Origin: Acidobacteriota bacterium
Lineage (GTDB): Bacteria > Acidobacteriota > Terriglobia > Bryobacterales > Bryobacteraceae
Assembly (NCBI GenBank): GCA_017307505.1
Contig: JAFKEE010000020.1
Coordinates: 62,001 to 126,000 of the forward strand
DNA: 64,000 nt
Direction: 5' to 3'
Both the position numbers and the translations under genes were made by a program. Below the pieces are notes generated by a model. That model made no database searches. It saw nothing but the letters and a program-made list of their open reading frames with translations, and was not told where the DNA came from. This document shows positions 17,278 to 33,404 of the stretch, piece after piece. Each line of letters starts with the position of its first letter. The stretch's first letter is position 1.

Positions 17278-18200
17278 TGCCCACTTCCATGATTCGCATC
17301 GACAAAGTGACGCGCCGGTTCGGCCCGCTCGAGGCCGTCAGGGACCTCAGCCTGGAGATCGCTGAAGGCGAAATCTTCGGGCTCGTGGGGCCCGACGGAG
17401 CCGGCAAAACCACCACCCTGCGCATGCTCGTCGGCCTCATGGATCCCACCGAAGGCACCCTCTCGGTGGCCGGCCTCGACGTGGGCAAAAACCTGGATGC
17501 CGTGAAAGACCAGATCGGCTATATGGCCCAGAAGTTCGGCCTCTACGGCGATCTCACCGTGGAAGAGAACATGTTCTTCTACAGCGACCTCTTCGGCATC
17601 GACCACACGGAACGTGACCGCATGATGGCTGAGTTCCTCGACATGACCCGCATGACGCCCTTTCGCCAGCGGCCCGCCGCCAAGCTCAGCGGCGGCATGA
17701 AACAGAAACTGGCCCTCATGTGCACCCTGCTGCACCGGCCTCGCGTGCTCTTCCTCGACGAACCCACCAACGGCGTCGACCCCCTCTCACGCCGCGACTT
17801 CTGGGAGATTCTCTATCGCCTCGCCTCCGAAGGCATGACGATCCTCGTCTCCACCGCCTACCTCGACGAAGCCGAGCGCTGCACGCGCGTCGGCCTCATG
17901 CACAAAGGCCGGCTCATCCGCTGCGACAAGCCCGCCACCCTGAAACAGCAGCTCGCGCCTCAGAGCTTCCGCGCCGAATCCTCTGATCTGCGCGCCGCTC
18001 GTGGCCGCCTGCAGGCGACGCCGGGCGTTCTCGGAGCAGAGCCCGCCGGCGCCGCCCTGCACGTCTATCTCGAAGAGGGCGTCGTCGCCTCCGACGTCGA
18101 ACGCGCCGCCGGTGATGTCCGCCTGAACCCGCTCGATCCGGCCCTCGAAGACGTCTTCATCGCCCTCATTCGGACGGAGGAACGCCATGCAGCCGCCTAA
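17277..18200 (+). CDS. ABC transporter ATPase, first half of a split YbhF/RbbA-type pair, H-loop degenerate
   Basis: 307 residues. Walker A GPDGAGKTT at 38-46, Q-loop AQKFGLY near 85, signature LSGGM at 137-141 and Walker B VLFLDEP with Asp161-Glu162 are present. The switch-loop His is replaced: VSTAYLDEAE has Ala194 where the next gene has STHYMDE. In E. coli YbhF and RbbA, two ATPase halves are fused and one carries this STAY-type loop, so this protein looks like the separate N-terminal half with a weakened catalytic site. GTG 17277 overlaps the adaptor stop; ATG 17289 is the alternative start. The last 80 residues form a small C-terminal regulatory domain. Confidence 0.92.
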   Translation: MPTSMIRIDKVTRRFGPLEAVRDLSLEIAEGEIFGLVGPDGAGKTTTLRMLVGLMDPTEGTLSVAGLDVGKNLDAVKDQIGYMAQKFGLYGDLTVEENMFFYSDLFGIDHTERDRMMAEFLDMTRMTPFRQRPAAKLSGGMKQKLALMCTLLHRPRVLFLDEPTNGVDPLSRRDFWEILYRLASEGMTILVSTAYLDEAERCTRVGLMHKGRLIRCDKPATLKQQLAPQSFRAESSDLRAARGRLQATPGVLGAEPAGAALHVYLEEGVVASDVERAAGDVRLNPLDPALEDVFIALIRTEERHAAA

Positions 18201-18942
18201 CGGCTCCACCGTTGTGGTCGAGAATCTCGTGAAGCGCTTCGGCGACTTCGTGGCCGTCGACAACGTGACTCTCAGCGTCTCGAAGGGCGAGATCTTCGGC
18301 TTCCTCGGTCCCAATGGAGCGGGCAAGTCCACGACCATCCGCATCCTCTGCGGCCTGCTCGGCCCCACCTCCGGCCGGGCCCAGGTCTACGGCTTCGACG
18401 TCGGCAAAGAGCCCGAACGCGTCAAACAATCCATCGGCTACATGTCGCAGAAGTTCTCCCTCTACGATGACCTCACCGTCGGCGAGAACATCGACTTCTT
18501 CAGTGGCGTCTACGGCGTCCCCAAGGACAAGCGTGCCGAGCGCAAGGCGTACGTTCTCAAAATGGCCGGCATCGAGGGCGAAGTCTCCCGCATGACGCGC
18601 CTCCTCGCCGGCGGCTGGAAACAGCGCCTGGCGCTAGGTTGCGCCATTCTCCACGAGCCGCCCGTCGTCTTCCTCGACGAGCCCACTTCCGGCGTCGACC
18701 CCATCGCCCGCCGCCAGTTCTGGGACCTCATCTACGAGATGGCCGCTGGCGGCACCACCGTCTTTGTCTCCACCCACTACATGGACGAAGCGGAGTATTG
18801 CCACCGCCTGGCCCTCATGTACCGCGGCCGCATGATCGAACTTGGCACACCGGCCGAGCTCAAGAAGAATCAGGGCGAAGGAGCCACCATGGACTCGGTC
18901 TTTATCGCCAGCATTGAACGCGAGGAGGCTCGGGAACGATGA
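18187..18942 (+). CDS. ABC transporter ATPase, second half of the YbhF/RbbA-type pair
   Basis: 251 residues. Walker A GPNGAGKST, Q-loop SQKFSLYDDL, an unusual signature LAGGWKQRLALG, Walker B VVFLDEPTSGVDP and an intact H-loop STHYMDEAEYC. The Gly-Trp-Lys-Gln-Arg form of the signature is shared, from memory, with the C-terminal half of YbhF. It should pair with the preceding ATPase so that one ATP site is canonical and one degenerate. The start overlaps the previous gene by 14 bases and its stop overlaps the next start (ATGA), so the ATPases and first permease are tightly coupled. Confidence 0.93.
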   Translation: MQPPNGSTVVVENLVKRFGDFVAVDNVTLSVSKGEIFGFLGPNGAGKSTTIRILCGLLGPTSGRAQVYGFDVGKEPERVKQSIGYMSQKFSLYDDLTVGENIDFFSGVYGVPKDKRAERKAYVLKMAGIEGEVSRMTRLLAGGWKQRLALGCAILHEPPVVFLDEPTSGVDPIARRQFWDLIYEMAAGGTTVFVSTHYMDEAEYCHRLALMYRGRMIELGTPAELKKNQGEGATMDSVFIASIEREEARER

Positions 18943-20072
18943 AATGGCGCCGCTTCTACGCGATCTTCCATAAGGAAGCGCTGCACATCCTGCGCGACTG
19001 GCGCAGTCTCATGATGGCTCTCGCCGTGCCCCTCATGCTGCTGCTCCTGTTTGGCTACGCGCTCACGCTCGATGTCGATCGCATCCCCACCGTCGTCTAC
19101 GACCAGGACCAGACACCGCAAAGCCGCGAAGTGGTGCAGCGCCTCCGCGGCTCGCGCTACTTCCAGATCGTCGAAGCCCAGGGCGACTACCGCAAGATTA
19201 TCGACCGCATCAACCACAGCACCGCTCTCATGGGCGTCGTGATCCCCAACCGCTTCGCGCACAAGATCGAAGCCAACGAGGAGGCCCAGATCCAGATCCT
19301 CGTGGACGGCAGCGACTCCAACACGGCCGGCATCGGCGCCGGTTACGCCGAGGCGTTGATCATGGCCTACGCCCAGGAACTCCGCGAGGCCCGCATGATC
19401 CGCCAGGGCATGAGCCGCCCTAAGTTCCCCCTCGATGCCCGCGTGCGCGTCCTCTACAACAACGAGATGAAGTCGCGGAACTTCATCGTGCCCGGCCTCA
19501 TCGCCGTCATCCTCATGATCATCGCCGCCCTGCTGACGTCGCTCACCGTGGCGCGCGAATGGGAAAGCGGCACCATGGAACAGTTGCTCTCCACGCCGGT
19601 GCGCCCCTCCGAACTCCTGCTGGGCAAGCTCTGCGCTTACTTTGTCCTCGGCATGTTCGATATGGCCATCGCCCTCTTCGTCGGCGTCGGCATCTTCGGC
19701 GTACCCCTGCGCGGCAGCACCCTTCTGCTGGTCTCCTCCGGAGCGTTGTTCCTCTTCGGTGCGCTCTGCTGGGGCATCTTCCTGTCCACCGTCACACGCT
19801 CGCAACTGCTGGCTTATCAGCTCTCGCTGCTCAGCAGCTTTCTGCCCGCATTCCTGCTCAGCGGCTTCATCTATGCGATTGAGAATATGCCGGTGGTCAT
19901 CCAGCAGTTCACGCGCATCGTGCCCGCCCGCTACTTCGTATCCATTCTGCAGGGCGTGTTCCTGAAAGGCATCGGCTTCTCGCTGCTCTGGACGGACATG
20001 CTGTTCCTGCTCATCTATGGCGGACTGATCTTTTCACTGGCTGCCCGCAAGATGCGGCAGAAGATGGCCTAG
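18939..20072 (+). CDS. ABC-2 type permease (YbhS/YbhR-like), first of two
   Basis: 377 residues. One N-terminal helix (about 26-46), a large periplasmic domain (about 47-180) and five C-terminal helices (about 180-365) with the ABC-2 signature EWESGTMEQLLSTPVRPSELLLGK before the last helices. It forms the membrane channel with the next gene product. Start ATG overlaps the ATPase stop, with GAGGCTCGG upstream. The helical pattern and order match YbhS/YbhR. Exported substrate unknown; related E. coli pumps handle drugs and cations. Confidence 0.93.
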   Translation: MKWRRFYAIFHKEALHILRDWRSLMMALAVPLMLLLLFGYALTLDVDRIPTVVYDQDQTPQSREVVQRLRGSRYFQIVEAQGDYRKIIDRINHSTALMGVVIPNRFAHKIEANEEAQIQILVDGSDSNTAGIGAGYAEALIMAYAQELREARMIRQGMSRPKFPLDARVRVLYNNEMKSRNFIVPGLIAVILMIIAALLTSLTVAREWESGTMEQLLSTPVRPSELLLGKLCAYFVLGMFDMAIALFVGVGIFGVPLRGSTLLLVSSGALFLFGALCWGIFLSTVTRSQLLAYQLSLLSSFLPAFLLSGFIYAIENMPVVIQQFTRIVPARYFVSILQGVFLKGIGFSLLWTDMLFLLIYGGLIFSLAARKMRQKMA

Positions 20073-20084
20073 GAGGACATGGCA

Positions 20085-21236
20085 ATGTGGGAACGCGTAA
20101 TGGAGATCATTCGCAAGGAGTTCCGCCAGACGCTGCGTGAGCCGCGCATGCGGGGCATCCTCCTCGGACCGCCCATTCTCCAGATGATCATCTTCGGCTT
20201 TGCCGTGAACCTCGATGTGGAGCACGTCCGCCTGGGCTGGATGGATCTCGACAAGACCGCCCAGAGCCTCGAACTCCGCAAACGCTTCGAAGGCAACCGC
20301 ACCTTCACCATCACCGCCGAGGCCGGAGACGAGCGCGCCGCGCAGGACCTGCTCGACCGCGGCAAGGTCCAGTGCCTGGTGCGCATCCCCGCCCGCTACA
20401 GCGCGGATGTGATGGCCGGACGGCAGACCGAAGTGCAGATCCTGCTCGACGGCGCCAACTCCAACACGGCCTCGATCATCTCCAACTACGCCAACAACAT
20501 CATCGCCACGCTCAACCAGCAGTTGCTGCGCGAGCAGCAGACCAGAAAGCTGGTGGGCCGCACACAGAACGGACCCGTCCTCCTGCGCATCCCCGGCATT
20601 CGCGTCGAACGGCGCGTCTGGTTCAACGAGGAGCTGCGCAGCCGCAACTACTTCGTACCCGGCGTGGTCGTGAACATCATCATGCTGGTGACGCTGATGC
20701 TCACCTCGCTATCCATCGTGCGCGAGAAGGAGATTGGCACCATGGAGCAGATCATGGTGACCCCCATCCGGCCCATTGAGCTGATGCTGGGCAAGACCAT
20801 CCCCTTCGCCATCATCGGTTTCTTCGACATGGCCCTGGTGGTGACCATCGCCCTCACCATCTTCCACGTCCCCTTCCGCGGCAGCTTCCTCACCCTGGCT
20901 GGCGCCGGCGCGCTCTTCCTGCTCTCCACCCTCGGAGCCGGGCTCTTCATGAGCACCATCTCCGATACTCAGCAGCAGGCCATGATGGCCTCGTTCTTCT
21001 TCTTCCAGCCCGCCTTCATGCTCAGCGGCTTCAGCTTCCCCATTCGCAATATGCCGGAACCGGTGCAGTGGGTCACATACCTCAATCCGCTGCGCTACTT
21101 CATGGATATCGTGCGCGGCGTCTTCCTGAAGGGCAGTGGCGTCTCCGTCCTCTGGCCGCAGATGTGTATGCTCGCCATCTTCGGGGTCACCATCCTCACC
21201 CTGAGCGCCCTGCGCTTCCACAAGCGCCTCGACTAG
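20085..21236 (+). CDS. ABC-2 type permease, second of two
   Basis: 383 residues from ATG 20085, which has AGGAGG eight bases upstream; the in-frame ATG at 20079 is only two bases from that site and so less likely. Topology is the same as its neighbour: one N-terminal helix, a periplasmic domain with LLDGANSNTASIISNYANN, then EKEIGTMEQIMVTPIRPIEL and a five-helix block ending at the C-terminus. It is clearly a paralogue of the preceding permease and would form a heterodimer with it. It is the last gene of the operon, closed by a strong bidirectional hairpin. Confidence 0.93.
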   Translation: MWERVMEIIRKEFRQTLREPRMRGILLGPPILQMIIFGFAVNLDVEHVRLGWMDLDKTAQSLELRKRFEGNRTFTITAEAGDERAAQDLLDRGKVQCLVRIPARYSADVMAGRQTEVQILLDGANSNTASIISNYANNIIATLNQQLLREQQTRKLVGRTQNGPVLLRIPGIRVERRVWFNEELRSRNYFVPGVVVNIIMLVTLMLTSLSIVREKEIGTMEQIMVTPIRPIELMLGKTIPFAIIGFFDMALVVTIALTIFHVPFRGSFLTLAGAGALFLLSTLGAGLFMSTISDTQQQAMMASFFFFQPAFMLSGFSFPIRNMPEPVQWVTYLNPLRYFMDIVRGVFLKGSGVSVLWPQMCMLAIFGVTILTLSALRFHKRLD

Positions 21237-21243
21237 ACGCGAA

Positions 21244-21278
21244 AAGGCCCGCGCACGCCTTTGGGCGCCGCGGGCCTT
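21244..21278. terminator. Bidirectional terminator between the efflux operon and the TonB receptor gene
   Basis: AAGGCCCGCG (21244-21253) pairs perfectly with CGCGGGCCTT (21269-21278) across a 15-base loop, with GTTGTCTGT following on the + strand and TTTTCGCG on the minus strand. It serves the convergent gene ends at 21236 (+) and 21301 (-). Confidence 0.75.
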
Positions 21279-21300
21279 GTTGTCTGTGCTCTCCCGTCCG

Positions 21301-24300
21301 TTAGAACTGGAAGCGCAGGTTGAACTGAATCACGCGGGACAGACCGCGCTGGCTGGTGACGCGGCCGAAGTTGCTGTTCGTCGGGTCCAGGTTCGGGCCG
21401 CTGAAGTTGCTGTGGTTGGTTGCATTCAGCAGGTCCACCGAAAGGCGGGCGCTCATGCCGCTATCCGGCTTGATCGGGAACACCCGCTCCACCTTCGCAT
21501 CGATGTTGAAGATGCCGTCCGCGCGAAGCGCGTCCAGGCGGATGGGGAAGACCCGCTCATGGTAGGAGCCGGGCTGGGCGGACGCCCGGCCTTCAAAGCC
21601 CACAAAACCGCTGGGCGGCGCACTGGTCGTCGTCGTCCAGGCAAGGGACTTGTCGAACCACTGCAGGTAGTCCTTGCTGCGCACTTCGTCGTGCTTGAAC
21701 AAGGACTCCAACTGGCCCTGGTCGCCGTAGAAGAAGCGGTTGCCCCAGTCGCCCGTGGCCGGACCACTTTGCATCTGCAGCACGCCGGAGATGTTCCAGT
21801 TGCCGATCACATAGGCCAGGGGACCACTCTTCACAAAGCTGCGGCCCTTGCCGAAAGGCATCTCATAGACGCCCGTCCACGCCAGACGGTGCGGCAGCAC
21901 GTTGTTGTTCGGCCGCTCGGTCGGCAGCAGGTCATACTCGTTGGCATACCAGTCGCGCACACGCGACGTGGCGTAGGTGTACATCACGCTGGTCTGGAAG
22001 CCTTTGGTGAAACGGCGTTCCACCATTACTTCCAGATCGTGATACTTCGTGTAGCCCGTCCGCAGGCTCTGGCCCGGCAGGTTCATCCCGCGCAGGTTGG
22101 CATATTGGCCGCCGTCGCGGAGCAACCGGTTGCGGCCGATTACGGAACTCGTGAAGAACGAATTGCCGCTCATCCAGCGGTACAGATCCGGGTTCGAAGA
22201 CTGCAGAGCACCGAGATTCTTAACCGCCCAGGGGTTGGCCACGTTCGCGTTCAGAGCATTGTCATTGGCTTGATCGCGAACCATGCCCTTGGTCCAATAC
22301 TCGCCCGGCAGGTAGTTCAGGCGGCGTTGGATCGGCTGCATGGCATAGCCGCCGTTATAGGACACATCCACCATCAGGTTGTGCAAAACCTCGCGCTGGA
22401 AGCCGAATCGCCACCGGTGCTGCAGCGCTGGTTTGTAGTCCCAGGGCAGCGAGTTGAAATCGGCGTTGAATCGCGCCAGGCCGGCCAGCTTCGACCGGAA
22501 TGGCTCGTCAAAGCGGGTGTTGCCGCTGGCCGGGCGGACCGGGAACGGATCGTTCATGGGAGTACGGCCGGTCGCGAGCCCGTCGATGGTGCCGACGCCG
22601 CAGCAGAAGGTAAGACCCGCATCGTTGCTGATCGGGGTGCTGGTGGCCTGGTTAAAGCCATCCGTGTACGGCCGGTCGTTGGAAACGTTCAATGTATCCG
22701 CGTAGACGCCCCATCCGGCGCGGATGACCGTCTTGTTGTTCAGGCTGTAGACTATGCCGGCCTTGGGCAGGAAGTTGTGTACGCCCTTGGTGGCCGTGTC
22801 ATATCCGCCGGTGCCCAGGTAGGGAGTGTAGCCATTCGCGGAGAACTGGCTCGCCGGCAGCCCGGCAATTGGCGCGGCCGCGTAAGCAGCTTCAACAGCC
22901 GACGTGATCGGGCTGGCGCCGTCCACATAGGCGGCGGAGATGCCGCGGTTGAAGCGCTCGCTCGTGCCGCCTTCCCGCTCGTAGCGCAGCCCGAGGGAGA
23001 TGCGCAGCTTGTTCGTCAGGCGCCAGTCGTCCTGGAAGAACAGGGCCCGCCGTGGCGTCCGCCAGTAAGCGGAGTCGTTCGTATCGATCGACATCCCCGT
23101 CGGGATGCCCATCATGAACGCCGCCCAGTCGCGGACATGGTTCACGCTGACGTTGTCGACGTTCGTCGCCTTCGTCCAGGAGTTGCTCCGGAAATCGAAG
23201 TAACCGGTGCTGCTGCCGGGGCCGCTGGCCGCGAACAGGTTCCGCCGCTCCTGCCACCCGTACTTGAACGAGTGGTTGCCGCGAATGCTTGTCATCGTCG
23301 CGCGGTACTCAAAGGTATTGCTCTTCGAATCGATCACCGGATAGCTGCCGCCGACGTCGGAAATGGTGTCAAAGTCCAGACGAGGCAGTTGAGTGAAGCT
23401 GCCGGCGCGCTGATCGATGTAGGCAGGCAAACCCGTCTGCGCAGCCGTGATCTTCGTGCGCGTCGTATTGCGGCTGCCTTCTTCGAACCGCGAAATGCCG
23501 AAATTCGTGTCCAGGATGTTGGTGGAACTGATGGTCCACAGATACCCGATGTTGCCGCCGCGGTTGATACGGGTGAGACCGTTGGAGTGCAGTCCGCGGG
23601 CCGTCTCATACGTCCAGTCGTACTCGTCGGCCAGGCGGTCATTCCACTGCCAGCGGACGTTCACGCGATGGTTCTGGCTCACTACCCAGTCGTAGCGGTT
23701 CACGATGGAGTTGAACTTCTCATCCTTCGGCATCGCCGTGGCGAGGTAGTTGTTCGTCAACTCGGCGGTCACAAGGCCCGGAATGTTGTTCGGGGTCGGA
23801 TACAGCTTCGAGAAGTACGCATAAGCCGGATTCAGGATCGGAACGCCCTTGTTGCCGGGGAACGGAGTACGCACCACCGTATTGCCCTGCAACGTGGCCG
23901 AGCGCGGATCGTAGATCGTGAAGCGGTTGGCGCCGTTCGGAATGTTGAGGAAGTAGGAGAAGTCGCCCTGCTTCATCGCCGCGTCGGGCACCGTGCGATT
24001 GACGTCGGAAGTGGTCTCCGCCTTGGACTGCCGGATGCCGTTCCATGTCATCGTCCAGAAGACCTTGTCCTTGCCGTTGAAGATCTTCGGGATATAGACA
24101 GGACCGGAAGCTGATACGCCGTAGTTGTTGGAACGGCCGGTCGCCTGCTTCTGCCGCTTCGAAGGATCGATGGTGCCGTTGCGCACGCCGGCGTCAAAAG
24201 GCTCGCGCGTGAAGAACGGCGTCGCATTCCAACGCTGTTGCCAGTGCTGGTCGAATACGGCGCCATGCAGCGCGTTGCCGCCCGACTTCGAGCTCACGTT

Positions 24301-25011
24301 GATCGCCGCGCCGGAAGTGAAGCCCTGGCTGGCGTCGAAGTTCGAGGTCTCGAGCTTGAACTCGCCCACCGCATCGGCCGGAGGCGTAAAGCCGACACGG
24401 CGCCCCGTCCCGGTGACGCTCATGCCGTCCATCGTGTATTCGTTCTGCCCGACTCCGCCCATCGTGTTGAACGACGACGTGCCGCCGTTGTCGAACGGAC
24501 GGCGGTATTCCGGTTGGCCCGTCCACTGCATGCCGGGCGCCAGCGCCGATAACGCAAACGGATTGAGGTCAGAAAAAGGCAGGTTGATCAACTGCTGCTG
24601 ATCGAGAACACGGCCGCCGCTCGCCGTCGTCGTCTCCAGCAGCGGAGCATCGGCGGAGACTTCCACCGTCTCGGCGACCGCCCCGACTTCCATGGTCAGG
24701 TTAATCTCGAGACGGGAACTCACGTTCACTGTTATGCCAGTACGGCTGAGCTTCTTGAACCCACCCGACTCCACCATGACGCTGTAGGTGGACGGTTCCA
24801 GGAAGTTCGCCTCATAGTAGCCTGTGTCATTTGTGGTGACACGGCGAGCTTCATTGGTTTGGGTATTGGTAACGGTTACCTTTGCGTTCGGAATGACCCC
24901 GCCTTGCGGATCACTGACTCGGCCAGTGATGGCGCCGCGGGCTTCCTGTGCATAGGCGGAGACTGTGGAGAGTGCAAGCACTGCAACTCCCGCGAGAAGC
25001 TTACGCCACAT
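21301..25011 (-). CDS. Oar-like TonB-dependent outer-membrane receptor, tandem copy 1
   Basis: 1236 residues from ATG 25011 (AGGGGG upstream; an extra 11 residues upstream would spoil the signal peptide). Signal peptide about 1-22, carboxypeptidase-regulatory-like Ig domain (ARGAITGRVSDPQGGVIPNA, about 23-105), plug region (RVLDQQQLINLPFSDLNPFALS near 140-160), then a large beta-barrel ending in the outer-membrane signature LRFQF. Such receptors take up or bind large oligosaccharides, peptides or siderophores; the ligand is unknown. The adjacent gene at 25246 encodes a protein of exactly the same length that is roughly nine-tenths identical by eye. It is shielded from that gene by its own promoter at 25064-25092. 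Confidence 0.93.
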   Translation of the reverse strand: MWRKLLAGVAVLALSTVSAYAQEARGAITGRVSDPQGGVIPNAKVTVTNTQTNEARRVTTNDTGYYEANFLEPSTYSVMVESGGFKKLSRTGITVNVSSRLEINLTMEVGAVAETVEVSADAPLLETTTASGGRVLDQQQLINLPFSDLNPFALSALAPGMQWTGQPEYRRPFDNGGTSSFNTMGGVGQNEYTMDGMSVTGTGRRVGFTPPADAVGEFKLETSNFDASQGFTSGAAINVSSKSGGNALHGAVFDQHWQQRWNATPFFTREPFDAGVRNGTIDPSKRQKQATGRSNNYGVSASGPVYIPKIFNGKDKVFWTMTWNGIRQSKAETTSDVNRTVPDAAMKQGDFSYFLNIPNGANRFTIYDPRSATLQGNTVVRTPFPGNKGVPILNPAYAYFSKLYPTPNNIPGLVTAELTNNYLATAMPKDEKFNSIVNRYDWVVSQNHRVNVRWQWNDRLADEYDWTYETARGLHSNGLTRINRGGNIGYLWTISSTNILDTNFGISRFEEGSRNTTRTKITAAQTGLPAYIDQRAGSFTQLPRLDFDTISDVGGSYPVIDSKSNTFEYRATMTSIRGNHSFKYGWQERRNLFAASGPGSSTGYFDFRSNSWTKATNVDNVSVNHVRDWAAFMMGIPTGMSIDTNDSAYWRTPRRALFFQDDWRLTNKLRISLGLRYEREGGTSERFNRGISAAYVDGASPITSAVEAAYAAAPIAGLPASQFSANGYTPYLGTGGYDTATKGVHNFLPKAGIVYSLNNKTVIRAGWGVYADTLNVSNDRPYTDGFNQATSTPISNDAGLTFCCGVGTIDGLATGRTPMNDPFPVRPASGNTRFDEPFRSKLAGLARFNADFNSLPWDYKPALQHRWRFGFQREVLHNLMVDVSYNGGYAMQPIQRRLNYLPGEYWTKGMVRDQANDNALNANVANPWAVKNLGALQSSNPDLYRWMSGNSFFTSSVIGRNRLLRDGGQYANLRGMNLPGQSLRTGYTKYHDLEVMVERRFTKGFQTSVMYTYATSRVRDWYANEYDLLPTERPNNNVLPHRLAWTGVYEMPFGKGRSFVKSGPLAYVIGNWNISGVLQMQSGPATGDWGNRFFYGDQGQLESLFKHDEVRSKDYLQWFDKSLAWTTTTSAPPSGFVGFEGRASAQPGSYHERVFPIRLDALRADGIFNIDAKVERVFPIKPDSGMSARLSVDLLNATNHSNFSGPNLDPTNSNFGRVTSQRGLSRVIQFNLRFQF

Positions 25012-25035
25012 CGTCTGATGGACCCCCTGTACTAC

Positions 25036-25053
25036 TAGGAACAAAGGTTCCTA
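25036..25053 (-). other. Perfect 7-bp hairpin in the 5' leader of receptor copy 1
   Basis: TAGGAAC (25036-25042) and GTTCCTA (25047-25053) flank AAAG, between the promoter and the start codon at 25011. It is absent from the leader of copy 2. It could be an operator or an mRNA structure. Confidence 0.4.
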
Positions 25054-25063
25054 AGCTTCGGAG

Positions 25064-25092
25064 ATTAAATCAGACTTTCGATAGCACGTCAA
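25064..25092 (-). promoter_or_regulatory. Promoter of receptor copy 1
   Basis: Minus-strand TTGACG (25087-25092), 17-base spacer, TTTAAT (25064-25069). The spacer GCTATC.AAAGTCTG is shared with the promoter of copy 2 at 29012-29040, so the promoter was duplicated with the gene and has been conserved since. Confidence 0.75.
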
Positions 25093-25201
25093 GACGGATG
25101 GTACTCCCCTTTGGCTGCGGGACAATCCCCTAGATACGGTATTTTTGTATACCACTCGGCACGAAAACCACGCTCCGCCTGCTCGATTTGGCCTGAGCGA
25201 A

Positions 25202-25230
25202 GGAGGATCCGGCACCCGGCCGGACCCTCC
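25202..25230 (-). terminator. Hairpin downstream of receptor copy 2
   Basis: A 12-bp stem with one A-C mismatch (left arm 25202-25213, right arm 25219-25230) lies 16 bases after the stop at 25246. No U tract follows, so it is either a weak terminator or a 3'-end stabiliser. Confidence 0.4.
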
Positions 25231-25245
25231 CTGCCGCCCCTCGGG

Positions 25246-28200
25246 CTAGAACACGAAGCGCAGGTTGAACTGGATCACGCGGGAGAGGCCGCGCTGGCTG
25301 GTGACCCGTCCGAAGTTGCTGTTCGTCGGGTCGATATTGGGCCCGCTGAAGTTCGTGTGATTGGTCGCATTCAACAGGTCCACCGAGAACCGGGCATTGA
25401 TGCCCTTCTCCGGTTTGATGGGAAAGACACGCTCGACTTTGGCGTCGATGTTGAAGATGCCGTCTGCTCGCAGGGAGTCGAGGCGGATGGGGAAAACCCG
25501 CTCGTGGTAGCTGCCTGGCTGGGCGGAGGACCGGCCTTCAAACCCGACAAAACCGGCCGGCGGCGCACTGCTGTTGTTCTTCCAGGCGATGGAACTGTCA
25601 AACCACTGCAGGATGTCCTTACTGTGGACGTCGTCGTGCTTGAACAGCTCGGCCAGCTGGCTTTGATCGCCGTAGAAGAACCGGTTGCCCCAGTCCCCTG
25701 TGGCGGGCCCGCTCTGGAGCTGGAGGACGCTGGAGATATTCCAGTTTCCGATGAGATAGGCCAGCGGACCGTCCTTCACGAACGTGCGCCCCTTGCCGAA
25801 CGGCATCTCGTAAACACCGGTCCAGGCGATGCGGTGCGGCAGGACGTTGTTGTTCGGCCGCTCTGTCGGGAACTGGTCATACTCGTTGGCGTACCAGTCG
25901 CTGACCCTTGAGGTGGCATAGGTGTACATGAAGCTGGTTTGGAAGCCTTTGCTGAACCGTCGCTCCACGAGCACTTCCAAATCGTGATAAGTGTTGTAGC
26001 CCAGGCGGAGATCCTGCCCCGGCAGGTTCATGCCGCGCAGGTTGGCATACTGTCCCCCCGGGCGCAGAAGGCGGTTGCGCCCCAATACCTTACTCGTAAA
26101 GAAGGAGTTACCGCTCATCCAACGATAGAGGGCCGGGTTCGTCTCCTGGACAGCGCCTAAGTTGGCAATGTTGTATGGATTCGGGACATTGGCGTTGAGC
26201 TGGTTGTCGTTCGCCTGATCCCGCACCATGCCTTTGGTCCAGTTGTCTGCCGGCAGGTAGTTCAATCTCCTCTGCACCGGCAAGTAGCTGTAGGCGCCGT
26301 TATAGGAAACGTCCACCATCAGGTTGTGGAAGATCTCGCGCTGAAAGCCGAAACGCCAGCGGTGCTGGAGAGCGGGTTTGAAGTCCCAGGGCAGCGAATT
26401 GAAGTCCTGATTGTAGCGGGCGAGGCCGGCCAGGGCGGTCCGGAAAGGCTCGTCGAAACGGGTGTTGCCACTGGCGGCCCGGACCGGGAACGGGTCGTTC
26501 ATGGCGGTGCGCCCGGTGGCAAGCCCATCGATCGTACCGACGCCGCAGCAGAAGGTGAGGCCGGCGTCGTTGCTGATCGGGGTGCTGGTCGGCTGGTTGA
26601 AACCGTCCGTGTAGGGGCGGTCGTTGGCCACGTTCAGGGTGTCGGCATACATGCCCCACCCCGCACGGATCACGGTCTTGTTGTTCAGGCTATAGACAAC
26701 GCCGACCTTCGGGAGGAAGTTGTGAACACCCTTGGTGGCGGTGTCGTACCCGTTGGTGCCGAGATACGGATTGAAGCCTTTTGCCGAAAACCGGCTCGCC
26801 GGCAGGCCGGCCATCGGAGCCGAGGCATAGGCCGCCTCGACCAGGGACGTAATCGGGCTGGCGCCGTCAACATACGCCGCCGAGATGCCGCGGTTGAACC
26901 GCTCACTGGTGCCGCCCTCCCGTTCATACCGCAAGCCAAGGGAGATACGCAGTTTGCTGCTCAGGCGCCAGTCGTCCTGGAAGAACAGGGCGCGGCGGGG
27001 TGTGCGCCAGTAGGCCGAGTCGTTTGTGTCGATGGACATTCCCGTCGGAATGCCCATCATGAAGGCCGCCCAGTCGCGGGCATGGTTCGAACTGACGTTG
27101 TCGACGTTCGTCGCCTTCGTCCAGGGATTGCTCCGGAAGTCAAAGTAGCCGGTGCTGTTGCCCGGGCCGCTGGCGGCGAAGAGGTTCCTGCGCTCCTGCC
27201 AGCCGTATTTGAACGAATGGTTGCCACGGATGGTGGTCATCGTCGCGCGGTATTCGTATGTGCTGCTCTTCGCTCCGACGATGGGATAGCTGTCGCCCAC
27301 ATCGGAGATGGTGTCGAAATCCAGGCGCGGCAGCTGGGTGTTGGCGCCGGCCCTCTGGTCGATATACGCGGGCAGGCCCACCTGGGCGGCGGTGTACTTC
27401 GTCCGTGTGGTGTTCCGGCTGCCTTCTTCAAAACGGGAGATGCCGAAGTTGGCATCCAGGATGTTGGTGGAGTTGATAGTCCAGAGGTAGCCGATGTTGC
27501 CCCCGCGGTTGATGCGGGTGAGTCCGTTGGAATGCAGACCACGCACGGTCTCATAGGTCCAGTCATACTCGTCCGCCAGACGATCGTTCCATTGCCAGCG
27601 GAAGTTCAGGCGGTGGTTCTGGCTGACGACCCAATCGTAGCGGTTGACGATGGAGTTGAACTTCTCGTCCTTCGGCATTGCCGTAGCAAGGTAGTTATTG
27701 GTGAGTTCCGCGGTCACAAGGCCTGGTACGTTGTTTGGATTCGGATACAGCTTCGAATAGAACGCATAGGTCGGGTTCAGGACGGGAATCCCTTTGTTGC
27801 CAGGGAACGGCGTCCTCACGACCGTGCTGCCCTCCAGGCGTGCCGAGCGCGGATCGTAGATCGTAAAGCGGTTCGCGCCGTTGGGAATGTTGAGAAAGTA
27901 GGAGAAGTCGCCCTGCCTCATCGCCTCGCTGGGGACCGTCCGGTTCACGCTGGAAGTGGTCTCGGCCTTCGACTGGCGGATTCCATTCCAGGTGAAGGTC
28001 CAGAAGAGTTTGTCCTTGGCGTTCAGGATCTTGGGCAGATAGACAGGACCGGAGGCCGAGAATCCATAGTTGTTGGACCGCCCGGACGCCTGCTTCTGAC
28101 GTTGTGACGGGTCGATGGTGCCGTTGCGGACTCCGGCATCGAACGGTTCCCGGGTGAAGAACGGGGTGGCGTTCCAGCGCTGCTGCCAGTGCTGATCGAA

Positions 28201-28956
28201 CACCGAGCCATGGAGGGCGTTCGTGCCGGACCTCGAACTGACGTTAATCGAGGCGCCTGAGGTGAAGCCCTGGCTCGCATCGAAGTTGGAGGTTTCCAGT
28301 TTGAACTCACCAATCGCGTCAGCGGGCGGGGTGAAGCCCACTCGGCGTCCTGTGCCGGTGACACTCATTCCGTCGATGGAGTACTCGTTCTGGCCCACAC
28401 CACCCATGGTGTTGAACGAAGAGGTGCCGGCATTGTCGAACGGCCGGCGGTATTCGGGCTGGCCCGTCCACTGCATGCCGGGGGCGAGTGCCGACAGCGC
28501 GAACGGATTCAGATCTGAGAACGGAAGATTGATGAGTTGCTGCTGGTCGAGCACGCGGCCGCCGCTGGCGGTGGTTGTCTCCAGCAGGGGGGCGTCGGCC
28601 GAGACCTCCACCGTCTCCGCCACGGCGCCGACCTCCAGCGTCAGGTTGATCTCGAGCCGGGCGCTGACGTTTACTGTTATGCCAGTACGGTTGAGCCGTT
28701 TGAAGCCGGCGGACTCAGCGCGAACTGAGTACGTCGACGGTTCCAGGAAGTTCGCCTCGTAGTAACCCGTTTCGTTCGTCACGATACGGCGGGATTCGTT
28801 GGTCTGGGTGTTGGTCACCGTGACGACTGCATTCGGAATGATGCCGCCTTGGGGATCGCTGATTCTACCTGTGATGGCACCTCGCGCCTCCTGAGCATGT
28901 AGGGCGGAGGAAGCAAGTCCGAAGGTGACGGCTAGAGCAAGGAGCTTGAGCGACAT
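25246..28956 (-). CDS. Oar-like TonB-dependent outer-membrane receptor, tandem copy 2
   Basis: 1236 residues, same domain order as copy 1: signal peptide (1-21), carboxypeptidase-regulatory-like domain, plug, barrel, C-terminal LRFVF. Signal peptides of the two copies are unrelated (MSLKLLALAVTFG against MWRKLLAGVAVLA), while the mature parts differ at about one residue in ten, mostly conservatively, without gaps. The ATG at 28956 has GAGAGG upstream. The DNA differs more than the protein, mainly at third positions, where copy 2 shows G on the + strand where copy 1 shows C. No TonB/ExbB/ExbD genes are nearby. Ligand unknown. Confidence 0.93.
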   Translation of the reverse strand: MSLKLLALAVTFGLASSALHAQEARGAITGRISDPQGGIIPNAVVTVTNTQTNESRRIVTNETGYYEANFLEPSTYSVRAESAGFKRLNRTGITVNVSARLEINLTLEVGAVAETVEVSADAPLLETTTASGGRVLDQQQLINLPFSDLNPFALSALAPGMQWTGQPEYRRPFDNAGTSSFNTMGGVGQNEYSIDGMSVTGTGRRVGFTPPADAIGEFKLETSNFDASQGFTSGASINVSSRSGTNALHGSVFDQHWQQRWNATPFFTREPFDAGVRNGTIDPSQRQKQASGRSNNYGFSASGPVYLPKILNAKDKLFWTFTWNGIRQSKAETTSSVNRTVPSEAMRQGDFSYFLNIPNGANRFTIYDPRSARLEGSTVVRTPFPGNKGIPVLNPTYAFYSKLYPNPNNVPGLVTAELTNNYLATAMPKDEKFNSIVNRYDWVVSQNHRLNFRWQWNDRLADEYDWTYETVRGLHSNGLTRINRGGNIGYLWTINSTNILDANFGISRFEEGSRNTTRTKYTAAQVGLPAYIDQRAGANTQLPRLDFDTISDVGDSYPIVGAKSSTYEYRATMTTIRGNHSFKYGWQERRNLFAASGPGNSTGYFDFRSNPWTKATNVDNVSSNHARDWAAFMMGIPTGMSIDTNDSAYWRTPRRALFFQDDWRLSSKLRISLGLRYEREGGTSERFNRGISAAYVDGASPITSLVEAAYASAPMAGLPASRFSAKGFNPYLGTNGYDTATKGVHNFLPKVGVVYSLNNKTVIRAGWGMYADTLNVANDRPYTDGFNQPTSTPISNDAGLTFCCGVGTIDGLATGRTAMNDPFPVRAASGNTRFDEPFRTALAGLARYNQDFNSLPWDFKPALQHRWRFGFQREIFHNLMVDVSYNGAYSYLPVQRRLNYLPADNWTKGMVRDQANDNQLNANVPNPYNIANLGAVQETNPALYRWMSGNSFFTSKVLGRNRLLRPGGQYANLRGMNLPGQDLRLGYNTYHDLEVLVERRFSKGFQTSFMYTYATSRVSDWYANEYDQFPTERPNNNVLPHRIAWTGVYEMPFGKGRTFVKDGPLAYLIGNWNISSVLQLQSGPATGDWGNRFFYGDQSQLAELFKHDDVHSKDILQWFDSSIAWKNNSSAPPAGFVGFEGRSSAQPGSYHERVFPIRLDSLRADGIFNIDAKVERVFPIKPEKGINARFSVDLLNATNHTNFSGPNIDPTNSNFGRVTSQRGLSRVIQFNLRFVF

Positions 28957-29011
28957 AGTCAGTTGGCCTCTCTTGGCGTTTGGGAACGTCCGGGTTCAAA
29001 AAACTTGACTG

Positions 29012-29040
29012 ATTAGAGCAGACTTTGGATAGCCAGTCAA
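29012..29040 (-). promoter_or_regulatory. Promoter of receptor copy 2
   Basis: Minus-strand TTGACT (29035-29040), 17-base spacer, TCTAAT (29012-29017), with the same GCTATC.AAAGTCTG spacer as the copy 1 promoter. The leader to the ATG at 28956 is about 50 bases. Confidence 0.75.
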
Positions 29041-29376
29041 GATAGTTGACACTTCGCTCATCTCGTGCGGCTTGAACAAATAATTAGCCCGCAAGGGCTA
29101 CGACTACACCAAAATTGGGCAGTCTTCCTGCGGTTACGATCTTTGTGGTTGAGAGGTGTTAATCAAACATGGACGGTGCCCGAAGGGAGCCCGCAGCGGC
29201 ACCCAGAGCCTGTCGATCGCCGGATTCGTGTCGAAAGAAACGGCCCCCGCCGCCGAGTGTCGCGCGCTGTTGAGGGTAGCCAGGCTAGGGCGACGCCAGG
29301 CTCCAAACCTCATGAAATAGCCCTCTGACGGAGCTGGTGGGGAACAACATACAATGACTGAATCCAGGAGTCTCGC
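29041..29376. other. Intergenic region, no gene seen
   Basis: 336 bases between divergent genes. It contains a small hairpin with a GCAA loop (TAGCCC 29085-29090, GGGCTA 29095-29100) and, at the right end, TACAAT (29350-29355), a plausible -10 for the peptidase gene with only a poor -35. Nothing else stands out. Confidence 0.5.
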
Positions 29377-30717
29377 ATGACGAAACTGATGCTCTCTACT
29401 TCCCTGCTGGCAGCCGCGGTCTTTGCCCAGCAACCGCCGAATGCCCTGCACCCGGCTATGAAGAAGATCGCCGCGGAGGTCTCCGAAGACCGGATTACCA
29501 GCACGCTCAGGAAGCTGGAGAGCTTCGGCACACGCGACACGAATGGAGTCATTGAGACGCCCGGCCATGGCATCAAAGCGGCTCGCGAGTGGATTGCGGC
29601 GCAGTTCCGGAGCTACAGTCCGCGGCTCGAGGTCCGGTTTGATGCCCATGCGGTGAAGAAGAGCGCGCGTATTGTGAAGGACATCGATGTCGTCAACGTG
29701 GTGGCCGTGCTCAAAGGCAAGACGCAGCCGGATGTCGAGGTGCTGGTTGGCGCGCACTACGACTCAATGAACATGATCTTCAAATCCGGTACGCCGCGTG
29801 TGTTTGACGCCGATGCCACCGCGTCAGCGTCCATTGCGCCGGGCGTGTCGGACAACGGCAGCGGGATGGCGCTGGTCCTGGAACTGGCCCGCGTGATGAG
29901 CCAGTACGAGTTCGACAAGACGATCGTCTTCGTGGCCTTTGCGGGCGAGGAGCAGGGCCTGCTGGGCGCCGGAGGCTACGCTGAGGCGGCCGAGAAGTCG
30001 AAAGAGAAACTGGAAGCCGTTATCAACGTTGATGTGATCGGCAATGATGTGACTGGCAATGGCATCCAGGCCGGCGGCCGGGTGAATGTCTACTCCGGCG
30101 ACCCGATGGACTCCAACTCCCGCTCGCTGGCGCGTTATATGCGTGAAGTGGCGGAACGGTATCAGCCGGACCTGCGGATCAACACGGTCTTCCGCCAGGA
30201 CCGCTTCGGCCGCGGTGGCGACCACACGCCCTTCCTCAATCATGGATTTGCGGCGGTGCGCGTCACCACACCAACGGAACAGCTCGAATACCAGCACAAC
30301 GAGAAGGACACATTCGACCGCGTCTCCGTCCCCTACGTCGCCTCGGTCACCCGCAGCGTTGGCGTCTCGCTGGGCTCGCTGGCCATGGCGCCGAAGCCGC
30401 CGGCCGTCTCGCCGCTGGGCCGCGGCGATAGCCGCTATGACGCGGTGATGAAGTGGAAGAACGACGACCTGGAGCCCGACCTGGCCGGCTACTCCGTGGT
30501 GATGCGGTCGACCACCGCTCCGTTCTGGGAGCGCGAGTTCTATGTGGGCAAGACGGAGCAGTTCACACTCCGGAACGTGTCGATCGACGAGGTGGTTCTG
30601 GGCGTGCGCGCCATCGACACGGAAGGCTTCGCGAGCCTGGTGACGGCCTGGACGCTGCCCGTCCGCCGGAACTTCACCGGGGCGCCGGCGGCTCCTGCCG
30701 CGACTCCTGCTCCCTGA
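29377..30717 (+). CDS. Exported M28-family zinc aminopeptidase
   Basis: 446 residues. Signal peptide 1-17 (AAAVFAQ), then an M28 catalytic domain (about 35-355) with the two-zinc ligand set: His127 in GAHYDS, Asp159 in GVSDNGSG, Glu191-Glu192 in FAGEEQGLLG (catalytic base and ligand), an Asp near 219 and His283 in GGDHTPF. A fibronectin-like domain (about 365-435) and a Pro/Ala tail follow. It removes N-terminal amino acids from peptides outside the cytoplasm. AGGAG precedes the ATG. Its 3' end overlaps the convergent gene at 30674 by 44 bases, so the Pro/Ala-rich tail is read on both strands. Confidence 0.93.
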   Translation: MTKLMLSTSLLAAAVFAQQPPNALHPAMKKIAAEVSEDRITSTLRKLESFGTRDTNGVIETPGHGIKAAREWIAAQFRSYSPRLEVRFDAHAVKKSARIVKDIDVVNVVAVLKGKTQPDVEVLVGAHYDSMNMIFKSGTPRVFDADATASASIAPGVSDNGSGMALVLELARVMSQYEFDKTIVFVAFAGEEQGLLGAGGYAEAAEKSKEKLEAVINVDVIGNDVTGNGIQAGGRVNVYSGDPMDSNSRSLARYMREVAERYQPDLRINTVFRQDRFGRGGDHTPFLNHGFAAVRVTTPTEQLEYQHNEKDTFDRVSVPYVASVTRSVGVSLGSLAMAPKPPAVSPLGRGDSRYDAVMKWKNDDLEPDLAGYSVVMRSTTAPFWEREFYVGKTEQFTLRNVSIDEVVLGVRAIDTEGFASLVTAWTLPVRRNFTGAPAAPAATPAP

Positions 30718-31849
30718 TGCGGGCGATCTCCTGCGATCCGAACAGCAGCATGCGGGGGATGTGGAAACAGCCCTTGTAGTGGTTGCCCTTCAACTGGTGC
30801 GACACGCTGCCGTCTCGATGCAGGTAGCCGAACCATTCGCCGTGATTGGGGTCGGGGAAGTGGGCCCAGGTCCACTCCTGGACGCGTTCCAGCCAGCGCA
30901 GCCACTTCCCGTCGCGAGTGCGTGAGTAGGCGTGGATGAGGGCCAGCAGAGCCTCGACGTGGACCCACCAAAGCTTCATGTCCGACTCCAGCTGGAGCAT
31001 GGGGCGGCCGTCGATGTCCTGGAAGTAGTAAAGACCGCCGTGCTCGCGGTCCCAACCGAACTCCAGAGCGCCTTCGATGCAGTCGAGCAGCATCTTCTCG
31101 ACCGCCGGATCCGGGCACTGATCGAGCGCCCTGAACAGGATCCACGCGATCTCGAAGATGCTGCCGGTGCAGATGAGACGGCCATCGGGGTAAGTGAAGC
31201 GCTGAGCCGGATCCAGGGCGGCGGTCTCGAGCAGCAGGCGGCGCTCCGGCACGTAGTGGGTGGGGATCTTCGCGATGCACGCGCGTAGGGCGTCCGGGCG
31301 ATCCAGTTGCTGCGCCATGGAGCAGATGGCGTAGATGTCGGCCAGGTTGCTGTAGGCCACCCCACCGGCGAGAGCGGGCCGGTCCAGCAGGCGGGCGTCG
31401 GCGATCCACTCCTGGACCTTGACGAAGAGTTCTTCCGCCTTGGCCTGATACCACTCCTCCCCCGTTGCCTTGGCGTATTCACTGAAGCCGAGCATCACGA
31501 ACAGGCCGGCATAGGGCTTGCGCTGGTAGAACGACGGCAGGCCCTCGCGCGTGAGGGAGAAATAGCAGCGGCCCTTCTCATCGAAGGCATGCCTGCGGAG
31601 GAATTCGGCGCCGAGGCGCGCGGCTTCCAGCCACTCCGGGCGGCGCTCCACCTGGTTGTAGAGACGGGAGAAAGTCCAGACCTGGCGGCCGTTCAGCCAG
31701 ATGTACTTCCGGGTGTCGTACACGGCGCCCTGGGTATCCAGGCAGGTGAAGTAGCCGCCGTGTTCCCGGTCGAGCGAGTGCCGCAGCCAGAAGGGCAGCA
31801 CCGACCCATAGAGATTCTCCTCGTATTGCTCCTGCAGTCGCTTCCACAT
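30674..31849 (-). CDS. N-acylglucosamine 2-epimerase (AGE) family enzyme
   Basis: 391 residues from ATG 31849. The (alpha/alpha)6-barrel AGE family is recognisable from RKYIWLNGRQVWTFSRLYN (48-66), HAFDEKGRCYFSLTREG, LADIYAICSMAQ, WWVHVEALLAL, DPNHGEWFGYLHRDG and KGNHYKGCFHIPR. Members epimerise or isomerise free or linked sugars (GlcNAc/ManNAc, cellobiose, mannose). No signal peptide, so it is cytoplasmic. Many soil relatives act on glucose or cello-oligosaccharides, but specificity cannot be read here. There is no ribosome site, and TAGACT ten bases before the ATG could be the -10 of a near-leaderless transcript. It is divergent from the antiporter gene and convergent, with overlap, with the peptidase gene. 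Confidence 0.9.
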   Translation of the reverse strand: MWKRLQEQYEENLYGSVLPFWLRHSLDREHGGYFTCLDTQGAVYDTRKYIWLNGRQVWTFSRLYNQVERRPEWLEAARLGAEFLRRHAFDEKGRCYFSLTREGLPSFYQRKPYAGLFVMLGFSEYAKATGEEWYQAKAEELFVKVQEWIADARLLDRPALAGGVAYSNLADIYAICSMAQQLDRPDALRACIAKIPTHYVPERRLLLETAALDPAQRFTYPDGRLICTGSIFEIAWILFRALDQCPDPAVEKMLLDCIEGALEFGWDREHGGLYYFQDIDGRPMLQLESDMKLWWVHVEALLALIHAYSRTRDGKWLRWLERVQEWTWAHFPDPNHGEWFGYLHRDGSVSHQLKGNHYKGCFHIPRMLLFGSQEIARIREQESRQEPPAPR

Positions 31850-31923
31850 TTCGTGAATCAGTCTAGCAACCCGCGGTGGACGGCCGGATGGAGTCCTTCG
31901 TCCGGACGTGCCTGGCATTCGAC

Positions 31924-31952
31924 TTGAGTCCGGCGGCATCCTGCGGCACAAT
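31924..31952 (+). promoter_or_regulatory. Promoter of the antiporter gene
   Basis: TTGAGT (31924-31929), 17-base spacer, CACAAT (31947-31952). Transcription would begin near 31959, two bases before the ATG at 31961, and the in-frame TTG at 31952 would not be transcribed. This supports 31961 as the start. Confidence 0.5.
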
Positions 31953-31960
31953 TGCCAGAC

Positions 31961-33217
31961 ATGGCGGAAATCCTCTTAGGTATCGGTCTACTGGTATTTC
32001 TGTCTCTGTCGTTCACGGCGATTTTCAAACGCACGTTAGTGCCGGACGTGCTGATGCTCATCCTGCTGGGGATCCTGCTGGGCCCCGCGGTGCTGGGCTG
32101 GGTGAAGCCTTCGGACTTCGGCAAAATCGGCGGGGTGATGAGCACGATCGCACTGGTGGTGATCCTGTTCGAAAGCGGCACCACTCTGGATATTGACCTG
32201 CTCGCCAAGATGCTGAAAACGACCCTCAGCTTAGCCGTCTCCACCTTTTCGGGCACGGTGCTGATCATTGCCGCCGTTGCCTACTGGGGCCTGCATCTGG
32301 ACGTGCGGATGAGCTTCCTGCTTGGGTTAATCCTCTCCAGCATTTCGCCCGCGGTGGTGATTCCCATCGCCAAATCTTTGAAGATGCGGGAGCCGGCGAT
32401 GACCGTGCTGATTCTCGAGAGCGGCCTGACGGATGTGCTGTCGATTGTGATGGTCTTCAGCGTCATGGAGAGTCCCGAGGGGGTGTTTCATGCGCCCAAG
32501 ATGCTGGGCACGGTTCTATCCAGCCTGGTGTTTGCGGGGGTGATCGGCATGGCGGGCGGCCTGGCGTGGGCGGCGGTACTCAATACGGTGCGGCAGTTCC
32601 CGAACACGTCCTTTGCGGTGTTTGCCTGGGTCTTCATCCTGTATGGGATCGCGGACATGATGGGCTTCAGCGGTGCGATTGCAGCGCTGGCCTTTGGAGC
32701 CTCGATGGTCAACTACGACCGGCTGCCGCTGCACAATGTGAAGATCTTCCAGCAGCACGAGTTCGGCTCGCTGAATTCGGCGGATATGGAGTTCTATCAC
32801 GAGGTGATCTTCCTGCTGAAGACCTTCTTCTTCGTGTACCTGGGGCTTTCCATCCGGTTTGACAATCCGGTGTATCTGCTGATTGTGCTGGGTGTGGTGG
32901 TGCTGGTTTATCTGGTGAGGCTGGCCATCGTGACGAAGGTCATGCGAGGTGTGAGCCCGGGGTGGGAGGAGAGCTACGAACTCTCGGTGATGGCGCCCAA
33001 GGGCCTGGCGGCGGCGGTGCTGGCGAGTGTTCCGCTGGAGCGCGGCATGGCGGGAGGAGAAGTGATCCAGAGCTTCTCTTATTTCGTGGTGCTGGTGAGC
33101 ATTGTCCTGACTGCCGGCCTGATCCCGCTGATGCAGCGGCCGGCGGTGGGCCGGGCGGCCCGGCGGCTCTACGGCTTTGAAGAACCGGAACCGTTGCCTG
33201 CGCCGCAGCCGGAGTAG
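31961..33217 (+). CDS. Cation:proton antiporter (CPA superfamily)
   Basis: 418 residues from ATG 31961. About 12 hydrophobic segments cover residues 3-400. Features of CPA antiporters include LILLGILLGPAVLGW near 31-45, SSISPAVVIPIAKSLKM near 128-144 and ESGLTDVLSIV near 153-163, the latter with the acidic ion-binding position, and a closing ELSVMAPKGLAAAVLASVP motif near 340-358. It would exchange Na+ or K+ for H+ across the inner membrane for pH and ion homeostasis. There is no regulatory (TrkA/RCK) domain, and the C-terminus is short and acidic. It stands alone. Confidence 0.9.
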   Translation: MAEILLGIGLLVFLSLSFTAIFKRTLVPDVLMLILLGILLGPAVLGWVKPSDFGKIGGVMSTIALVVILFESGTTLDIDLLAKMLKTTLSLAVSTFSGTVLIIAAVAYWGLHLDVRMSFLLGLILSSISPAVVIPIAKSLKMREPAMTVLILESGLTDVLSIVMVFSVMESPEGVFHAPKMLGTVLSSLVFAGVIGMAGGLAWAAVLNTVRQFPNTSFAVFAWVFILYGIADMMGFSGAIAALAFGASMVNYDRLPLHNVKIFQQHEFGSLNSADMEFYHEVIFLLKTFFFVYLGLSIRFDNPVYLLIVLGVVVLVYLVRLAIVTKVMRGVSPGWEESYELSVMAPKGLAAAVLASVPLERGMAGGEVIQSFSYFVVLVSIVLTAGLIPLMQRPAVGRAARRLYGFEEPEPLPAPQPE

Positions 33218-33223
33218 AGGGGC

Positions 33224-33299
<76 letters not shown>

Positions 33300-33375
33300 A
33301 CGGAAGGGCGCGGGGGTTGCGCCCAGTCCTCAGTTTAGCCGAAAGGGTGGAGTGCGCGGCAGGCACAGGACTCCA

Positions 33376-33404
33376 TTGACCCATACATTTTCCGCCTGTA
33401 TGAT
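33376..33404 (+). promoter_or_regulatory. Promoter of the cysteine-peptidase candidate
   Basis: TTGACC (33376-33381), 17-base spacer, TATGAT (33399-33404). The two ATG codons at 33400-33405 fall inside or beside the -10 box, so they cannot be the start; the TTG at 33430 with AGAGGAGGGG (33413-33422) seven bases upstream fits. Confidence 0.75.

Follow-up and report, generated by a model that had tools for sequence, protein, structure and literature searches.

Background

GC skew is the standard guide to bacterial origins and inversions. In human chromosomes, N-domains are reportedly bounded by upward jumps in skew followed by gradual declines, a pattern read as initiation zones and dispersed termination. 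Among bacteria, Candidatus Solibacter usitatus Ellin6076 belongs to the same order as the organism studied here. It is an acidobacterium with a 9.97-Mb chromosome and many paralogues, whose cumulative GC skew has been plotted; in parts of the genome report these plots are used to argue for even G+C content, and no local switches are described there (PMC3174227). Irregular GC skew and multiple-origin replication are described together for Synechocystis PCC 6803, Nostoc PCC 7120 and Cyanobacterium aponinum in sections of a report on these cyanobacteria (PMC7198777), and passages of the SkewDB paper treat skew anomalies as a record of inversions (PMC8941118). Here we describe a stretch of 64,000 nucleotides (the window; bases 62001-126000 of contig C57, JAFKEE010000020.1, 392,543 bases) from a Paludibaculum-like bacterium of the family Bryobacteraceae (Acidobacteriota; genome G000, 9.39 Mb in 75 contigs), in which the + strand switches from C-rich to G-rich at the junction between an efflux operon and a tandem pair of outer-membrane receptor genes.

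In Paludibaculum, GC skew fails as a guide globally, yet it is strong and conserved locally. The lack of a V-shaped, replichore-wide skew is shared with the cyanobacteria, as is the presence of dnaA in several of them; dnaA is dispensable or absent among the cyanobacteria, and polyploidy is discussed in the sections cited (PMC7198777). Paludibaculum also differs from them in its strong local skew, with kilobase-sharp switches that are common to several species. Compared with the human N-domains, we are dealing with a bacterium, the domains measure tens of kb and not ~1 megabase, and the asymmetry between upward and downward switches is only moderately supported. As in genomes whose skew is marked by inversions, in-place inversions are found here, but the switch lies within a gene neighbourhood of four congeners, and the pressures on its two sides appear to be opposite. 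We offer, tentatively and at somewhat less than even confidence, the reading that the window contains a local strand-polarity switch point, one of many on a Paludibaculum-type chromosome, at which the direction of the replication fork may change.

Results

Position and nature of the switch

Genes were called with a codon-based script (302 genes on C57), and skew was measured at fourfold-degenerate sites. On the + strand, the skew of these sites is negative in 14 of the 15 genes called between 1.5 and 21.3 kb, whichever way the gene points (the sole positive gene, at 11930-12385, has a skew of +0.05), and positive in 19 of the 21 genes of either direction between 31.9 and 57.3 kb. The + strand GC skew in 2-kb windows lies between -0.03 and -0.20 as far as 22 kb, changes sign at 21-23 kb, stays above zero to ~57 kb and is slightly negative from ~57 to 63 kb. 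The changepoint has a support interval of 21.05-21.68 kb (C57 83047-83682), at the junction between the end of the efflux operon and receptor copy 1, and G+C content is even across it (0.60-0.63). To the left of the switch, all 17 five-kb bins from the start of the contig are negative.

The initial annotation of this stretch had reported a change from C-rich to G-rich along the + strand on the basis of seven G and C counts in 60-base lines. Each count is exact, and the switch is real, being tied to the DNA strand independently of coding direction. A coding-direction artefact was considered and ruled out: genes on the + and - strands agree locally, both in the window and in the closed genome of a relative described below. 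That annotation had also placed the switch inside the two receptor copies; the changepoint is to the left of that midpoint, and both copies are to its right and have the same sign. Its suggestion that the copies are under different strand bias survives in part. Copy 1 has a + strand fourfold skew of +0.05 and copy 2 one of +0.20 (paired test p = 3e-4), so that third-position bias does differ, but the copies do not lie on opposite sides of the switch. The cumulative skew has a local minimum here, as it had proposed to check; the switch is not a replicon-wide minimum, however, because C57 holds deeper minima near 175 and 275 kb.

Conservation of the switch and inversions around it

We compared the locus with that of Paludibaculum fermentans P105T (G006), whose closed chromosome is one contig of 9,476,802 bases, the published length (PMC8407742), and with those of two further congeners, G005 and the more distant G003 (UBA690); the gene-by-gene listing of skew in the congeners covers genes with at least 50 informative sites. 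The efflux operon and the M28 peptidase gene that lies to the right of the receptors are ~4 kb apart in G005 and G006 and 7.3 kb apart in G003, where a single additional gene stands between the operon and the receptor. The switch recurs in G006 and, in a weaker form, in G005, where the operon side is negative and the next three 5-kb bins to the right range from +0.02 to +0.06; in G003, the operon side is positive. At the switch, no break in gene order was found in G003, G005 or G006, with the flank genes 4-7.3 kb apart. There is no long inverted repeat in 19-24 kb, only short imperfect pairs (the longest of 25 bases at 72%), and no transposase among the flanking genes scanned with Pfam. An old inversion boundary was one of the causes that the initial annotation had entertained; the site does not resemble a recent boundary, because its flank genes have remained near neighbours in all three congeners and two of these also have the switch.

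Over the stretches compared, C57 and G006 are collinear except for two inversions in place in G006, block B (14.06-40.08 kb) and block E (80.2-117.7 kb). These arose towards G006, since G003 keeps the C57 order. Each inverted block carries an upward switch, and the local polarity pattern has thus been kept. In block E, three species have the zero crossing within or at the edges of the gene for tyrosyl-tRNA synthetase, amid 12 successive genes on the same strand.

Receptors of the CarboxypepD_reg plus OMP_b-brl_4 type are large outer-membrane receptors that are common in Acidobacteriota. The two copies in the window are 87% identical, and along them the fourfold skew climbs quarter by quarter; the leftmost quarter of copy 1 has -0.01 and the rightmost quarter of copy 2 has +0.23. 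In our reading, the receptors simply lie on the switch's right-hand shoulder, over which the bias rises from ~0. G005 and G006 have one receptor at the locus, an orthologue of copy 1, and copy 2 branches outside copy 1 and its orthologues (support 97/97). Compared with plasmids, copy 1 matched 21 records, all at less than 60% identity.

Local polarity along the chromosome

Along C57, fourfold skew alternates, with several switches, in genes of both directions. To cover a whole chromosome, G006 was sampled at 82 separate places of 20 kb each. With parS taken as the origin, skew is positive in 20 of the 41 samples from the right arm and negative in 23 of the 41 from the left arm, and therefore there is no replichore-wide skew in this genome. 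Locally, fourfold skew reaches ~0.5, and the genes of the + strand agree with those of the - strand (r = 0.81 over 81 of the 82 samples). As a control we ran the same script on 550 kb of pSymB, a single-origin replicon (G+C 0.621), which gave r = -0.14 between + and - genes (26 windows) and no jump of at least 0.35 in the 550 kb. Among the bins with enough sequence, the local bias also appears in intergenic DNA (r = 0.71, 211 of 263 bins), at twofold sites (|r| 0.65-0.69) and at codon positions 1+2 (r 0.46-0.47), and each of the eight fourfold codon families shows it (slopes 0.69-1.17). Since it extends to intergenic DNA, twofold sites, the first two codon positions and every fourfold family, the genome-wide local bias looks like a mutational strand asymmetry.

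The agreement between strands extends to 29 other Bryobacteraceae receptor loci of at least 13 kb (of 41 loci fetched, most from Acidobacteriota), in which + and - genes are correlated with r = 0.72 and one jump up and one jump down exceed 0.4. Local skew that is independent of gene direction may thus be family-wide. Flips of this kind, which are scattered along the closed chromosome and lie in gene neighbourhoods that relatives share, are not predicted by ordinary single-origin replication. We found no convincing gene family common to the switch points, MacB/FtsX being present at three of the eight whose flanks were scanned with Pfam, and no convincing shared motif at 18 switch points, where the best 7-mer occurs in 9 of the 18 and fails to reach significance once all 7-mers are allowed for. 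A count of changepoints outside genes is uninformative, as the scored sites are all within genes. A search of the literature (open-licence papers, text without figures) returned no report of this pattern in Acidobacteriota.

Present-day pressure on the two sides

The pressures now acting on the two sides were compared with a two-state (C/G), non-stationary substitution model at fourfold sites in three taxa (G000, G006 and G005). In block B, with one rate class, separate equilibria of -0.43 on the left and +0.30 on the right beat a shared one (likelihood ratio test (LRT) statistic 20.7, p = 5e-6), and leaving out each of the 17 genes in turn gave LRT values of 16.4-22.9. Local equilibria also beat a branch-specific shared model, which represents a single fork with an inversion, by 16-22 units of the Akaike information criterion. 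All seven left-side genes in the model lie on one strand; with the + strand genes only, the outcome is the same, and the parametric bootstrap gave 0/80, or 0/60 for three regions. An initial three-region likelihood (p = 9e-6) proved sensitive to slow sites. With the unvarying or slow sites left free, blocks B and E together give p values from 3e-5 to 0.003.

How many sites are unvarying can be judged by adding G003 as a fourth taxon (seven genes on the left and six on the right); in that comparison only ~11-15% look unvarying, with no skew. A model in which the local skew is a relic fits an unvarying share of 0.35, which is skewed and lies above the four-taxon estimate. When the share is instead fixed at 0.05-0.20, with share and composition preset, block B remains significant (p 8e-6 to 3e-5; p = 1.7e-5 at a share of 0.15). 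The left-side skew is +0.41 in G003 against -0.39 in G000, and that of the right side is +0.27 against +0.34. Weighing these results together with the weaker ones obtained when unvarying or slow sites are left free, we think with moderate confidence that the two sides of the switch are under opposite pressures though their genes have stayed neighbours.

Shape of upward and downward switches

The sharpness of upward and downward switches was compared in 76 separate G006 samples, after 4 of 80 had been dropped for overlap with a contiguous G006 stretch (6.54-7.10 Mb) that was analysed on its own. Upward switches are the sharper ones at arms of 5, 8 and 10 kb (sign-flip p = 0.008, 0.017 and 0.004; corrected for gene direction, p = 0.0035, 0.012 and 0.006), and at 5-kb arms, corrected, 15 samples exceed 0.35 and 2 fall below -0.35. 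At cut-offs of 0.25, 0.30, 0.35 and 0.42, the upward and downward jumps in the 76 samples number 27/20, 18/8, 16/5 and 12/1, and those on contig C17 of the source genome 1/1, 1/1, 0/1 and 0/0. Upward switches looked sharper on C57 and in the contiguous G006 stretch as well: the skewness statistic is 1.1-1.25 on C57 at arms of 8-12 kb (0/2000 in the phase null) and 0.4-0.5 in G006 at arms of 8-20 kb (p 0.015-0.04), where arms of 3-5 kb show no such effect; at 3-kb arms it is not significant in either. We regard the asymmetry between upward and downward switches as suggestive but not settled.

The chromosomal origin

A replication origin was the other cause that the initial annotation had in mind. 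In the source genome, dnaA lies at C17:461 kb, on another contig than the window, and two exact parS sites and one near-exact one lie at C17:440.65-440.76 kb. The corresponding positions in P. fermentans are 6.031 Mb for parS and 6.052 Mb for dnaA, and the switch locus is at 7.01 Mb, ~1 Mb off. The direction of the switch does match that of an origin, but besides these positions there are further such switches on C57, and the window has no DnaA-box cluster, as had been remarked from the start, and no dnaA. That oriC lies at the switch has next to no probability, and we rule it out.

Several features of dnaA and its surroundings were seen along the way. The DnaA domain of P. fermentans (G006:C1:6052043-6052529) is matched in two overlapping pieces in different frames, through a frameshift or a sequencing error; it is in one piece in G000 and G005. 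The ~75 kb by dnaA at C17:465001-540000 have almost no strand skew and mostly a lower G+C content (0.55-0.63). In G005, there are eight extra DnaA-domain matches (at G005:C3:806483-806782 and elsewhere), three of them with identical scores, of which one lies in the region homologous to the window. These extra matches are probably IstB-type transposition ATPases.

Discussion

If the local polarity reflects replication forks, the prevailing direction of replication would change sign at the switch, and in some rounds of replication forks would tend to leave the switch point both ways. The effect might also come from a different process by which the outward 5'-to-3' strand is exposed, recombination-dependent replication for example. 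A local change in fork direction is the simplest cause, plausible but unproven, and a good deal weighs against it. In most bacteria genes are biased to the leading strand, and that bias is absent here: 600 of 1253 genes (47.9%) are co-oriented with the local polarity where the domain skew exceeds 0.15. The tRNA genes are weakly co-oriented (21 of 31, with orthologues counted twice). The spacing of about one switch per 50-90 kb amounts to some hundred sites per chromosome, which is hard to square with regulated origins. The window holds two DnaA-box-like motifs (at 7314 and 22380) where 0.93 are expected, and within 700 bases of 18 pooled G006 switch points, including the orthologue of this one, there are none against 0.15 expected, which is a weak test. 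Neither is there any A+T enrichment near these 18 points (G+C 0.637, against a background of 0.630). The sharpness test in the 76 samples weakens when the genes of one strand only are used (p 0.007-0.099), and skewness is negative at long arms in shorter stretches (-1.1 in C17 and -1.45 in G003, at 20 kb). At the four cut-offs given above, upward and downward jumps are nearly even in contiguous sequence, numbering 11/12, 10/9, 7/7 and 6/4 in G006 and 4/6, 4/4, 3/2 and 2/1 in C57. Lastly, when unvarying or slow sites are left free, block B yields weaker evidence for opposite pressures (p = 0.025-0.05), and block E by itself gives no significant result (p = 0.067 with one rate class, 0.26-0.65 with rate classes).

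The last two of these points favour the main rival, an inversion mosaic, which we think somewhat less likely than the main reading. It posits one origin and many inversions, with segments that keep the skew of their former orientation, the switch being an old junction of two such segments. Blocks B and E, inverted in place in P. fermentans with their skew carried along, show that this can happen, and the closed relative retains no replichore-wide skew. But the genes that flank the switch are near neighbours in G000, G006, G005 and G003, and therefore should share one orientation; yet the sign of the left side differs from that in G003, and that of the right side does not. The skewed unvarying sites that the relic model calls for are also more numerous than the unskewed ones estimated with the fourth taxon, and no long inverted repeat is found near the switch. 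A mosaic predicts equal sharpness of upward and downward switches (200 inversion simulations gave 4.5 upward and 4.6 downward jumps per 560 kb), which is not what the 76 samples show.

Two further explanations concern the genes themselves. That the efflux operon favours C-ending codons and the genes to its right do not is a very improbable account of the switch. It would suit the location of all the left-side model genes on one strand and the coding-strand skew of the relative, which is slightly negative on average (-0.049). Codon preference fails, however, for the left-domain genes on the - strand, five of six of which have G-rich fourfold sites, as do most right-domain genes on the + strand. 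Nor does it explain why the bias reaches intergenic DNA, why the two strands agree over 81 samples of the relative, why the run of 12 same-strand genes in block E flips sign mid-way in three species, or why the + genes alone give the same model result. It is likewise very improbable, in our estimate, that a donor of other strand composition supplied the operon or some of the right-hand domain. The genes at 40.3-57.3 kb were indeed not found in 120 kb of G005 around the locus, and the rhamnosidase, receptor and sigma factor cluster at 43.4-51.2 kb resembles a cargo module; but four congeners share the genes that adjoin the switch to its left and right, domains alternate all along the sampled chromosome of the relative, and G+C content does not change at the switch.

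Returning to a local change in fork direction, a more specific version of it seems unlikely to us, namely that Paludibaculum has many dispersed initiation sites, stable over evolution and spaced at about one every 50-90 kb, which are used in a sizeable fraction of rounds and of which the window holds one. Such starts might be recombination-dependent or DnaA-independent, and the sawtooth skew would then be a fossil record of fork polarity, like that of the mammalian N-domains, but bacterial. If the local polarity does reflect forks, a single origin does not fully account for replication in these large-genome soil bacteria; if it does not, another strand-asymmetric process is needed.

Features of the window

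Table 1. Features of the switch locus, in window coordinates
Feature	Position	Strand	Basis or remark
Block B, holds the upward switch	14063..40076	.	Order as in G005 and G003; inverted in place in G006
Left domain, C-rich + strand, within the window	1506..21236	.	Fourfold skew and 5-kb bins
Efflux operon: TetR, outer-membrane efflux protein, HlyD-type adaptor, two ABC ATPases, two ABC-2 permeases	14063..21236	+	Pfam
Strand-polarity switch, C-rich to G-rich on the + strand	21047..21682	.	Changepoint support interval
Gap between two convergent genes, inside the switch interval	21237-21300		64 bases
Receptor copy 1: CarboxypepD_reg and OMP_b-brl_4 barrel	21301..24981	-	Pfam
Receptor copy 2: CarboxypepD_reg and OMP_b-brl_4 barrel	25246..28956	-	Pfam
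Peptidase M28, conserved right-hand neighbour	29377..30717	+	
Right domain, G-rich + strand	31961..57275	.	19/21 genes positive, both directions
Skew drifts back to ~0, negative past the window, across the type II secretion cluster	57275..64000	.	

Further to the right, at 43392-51244 on the + strand, a sigma-70-type factor, a zf-HC2 protein, a third OMP_b-brl_4 receptor and an alpha-L-rhamnosidase are encoded in one run, which resembles a module for regulated sugar uptake. P. fermentans carries this module on the opposite flank of the efflux operon and with its strand reversed. The - strand at 51871-55275 encodes a protein of 1134 amino acids with Big_1 (bacterial Ig-like) repeats and weaker invasin-type matches, and this gene adjoins the type II secretion cluster, whose start is at 57.9 kb.

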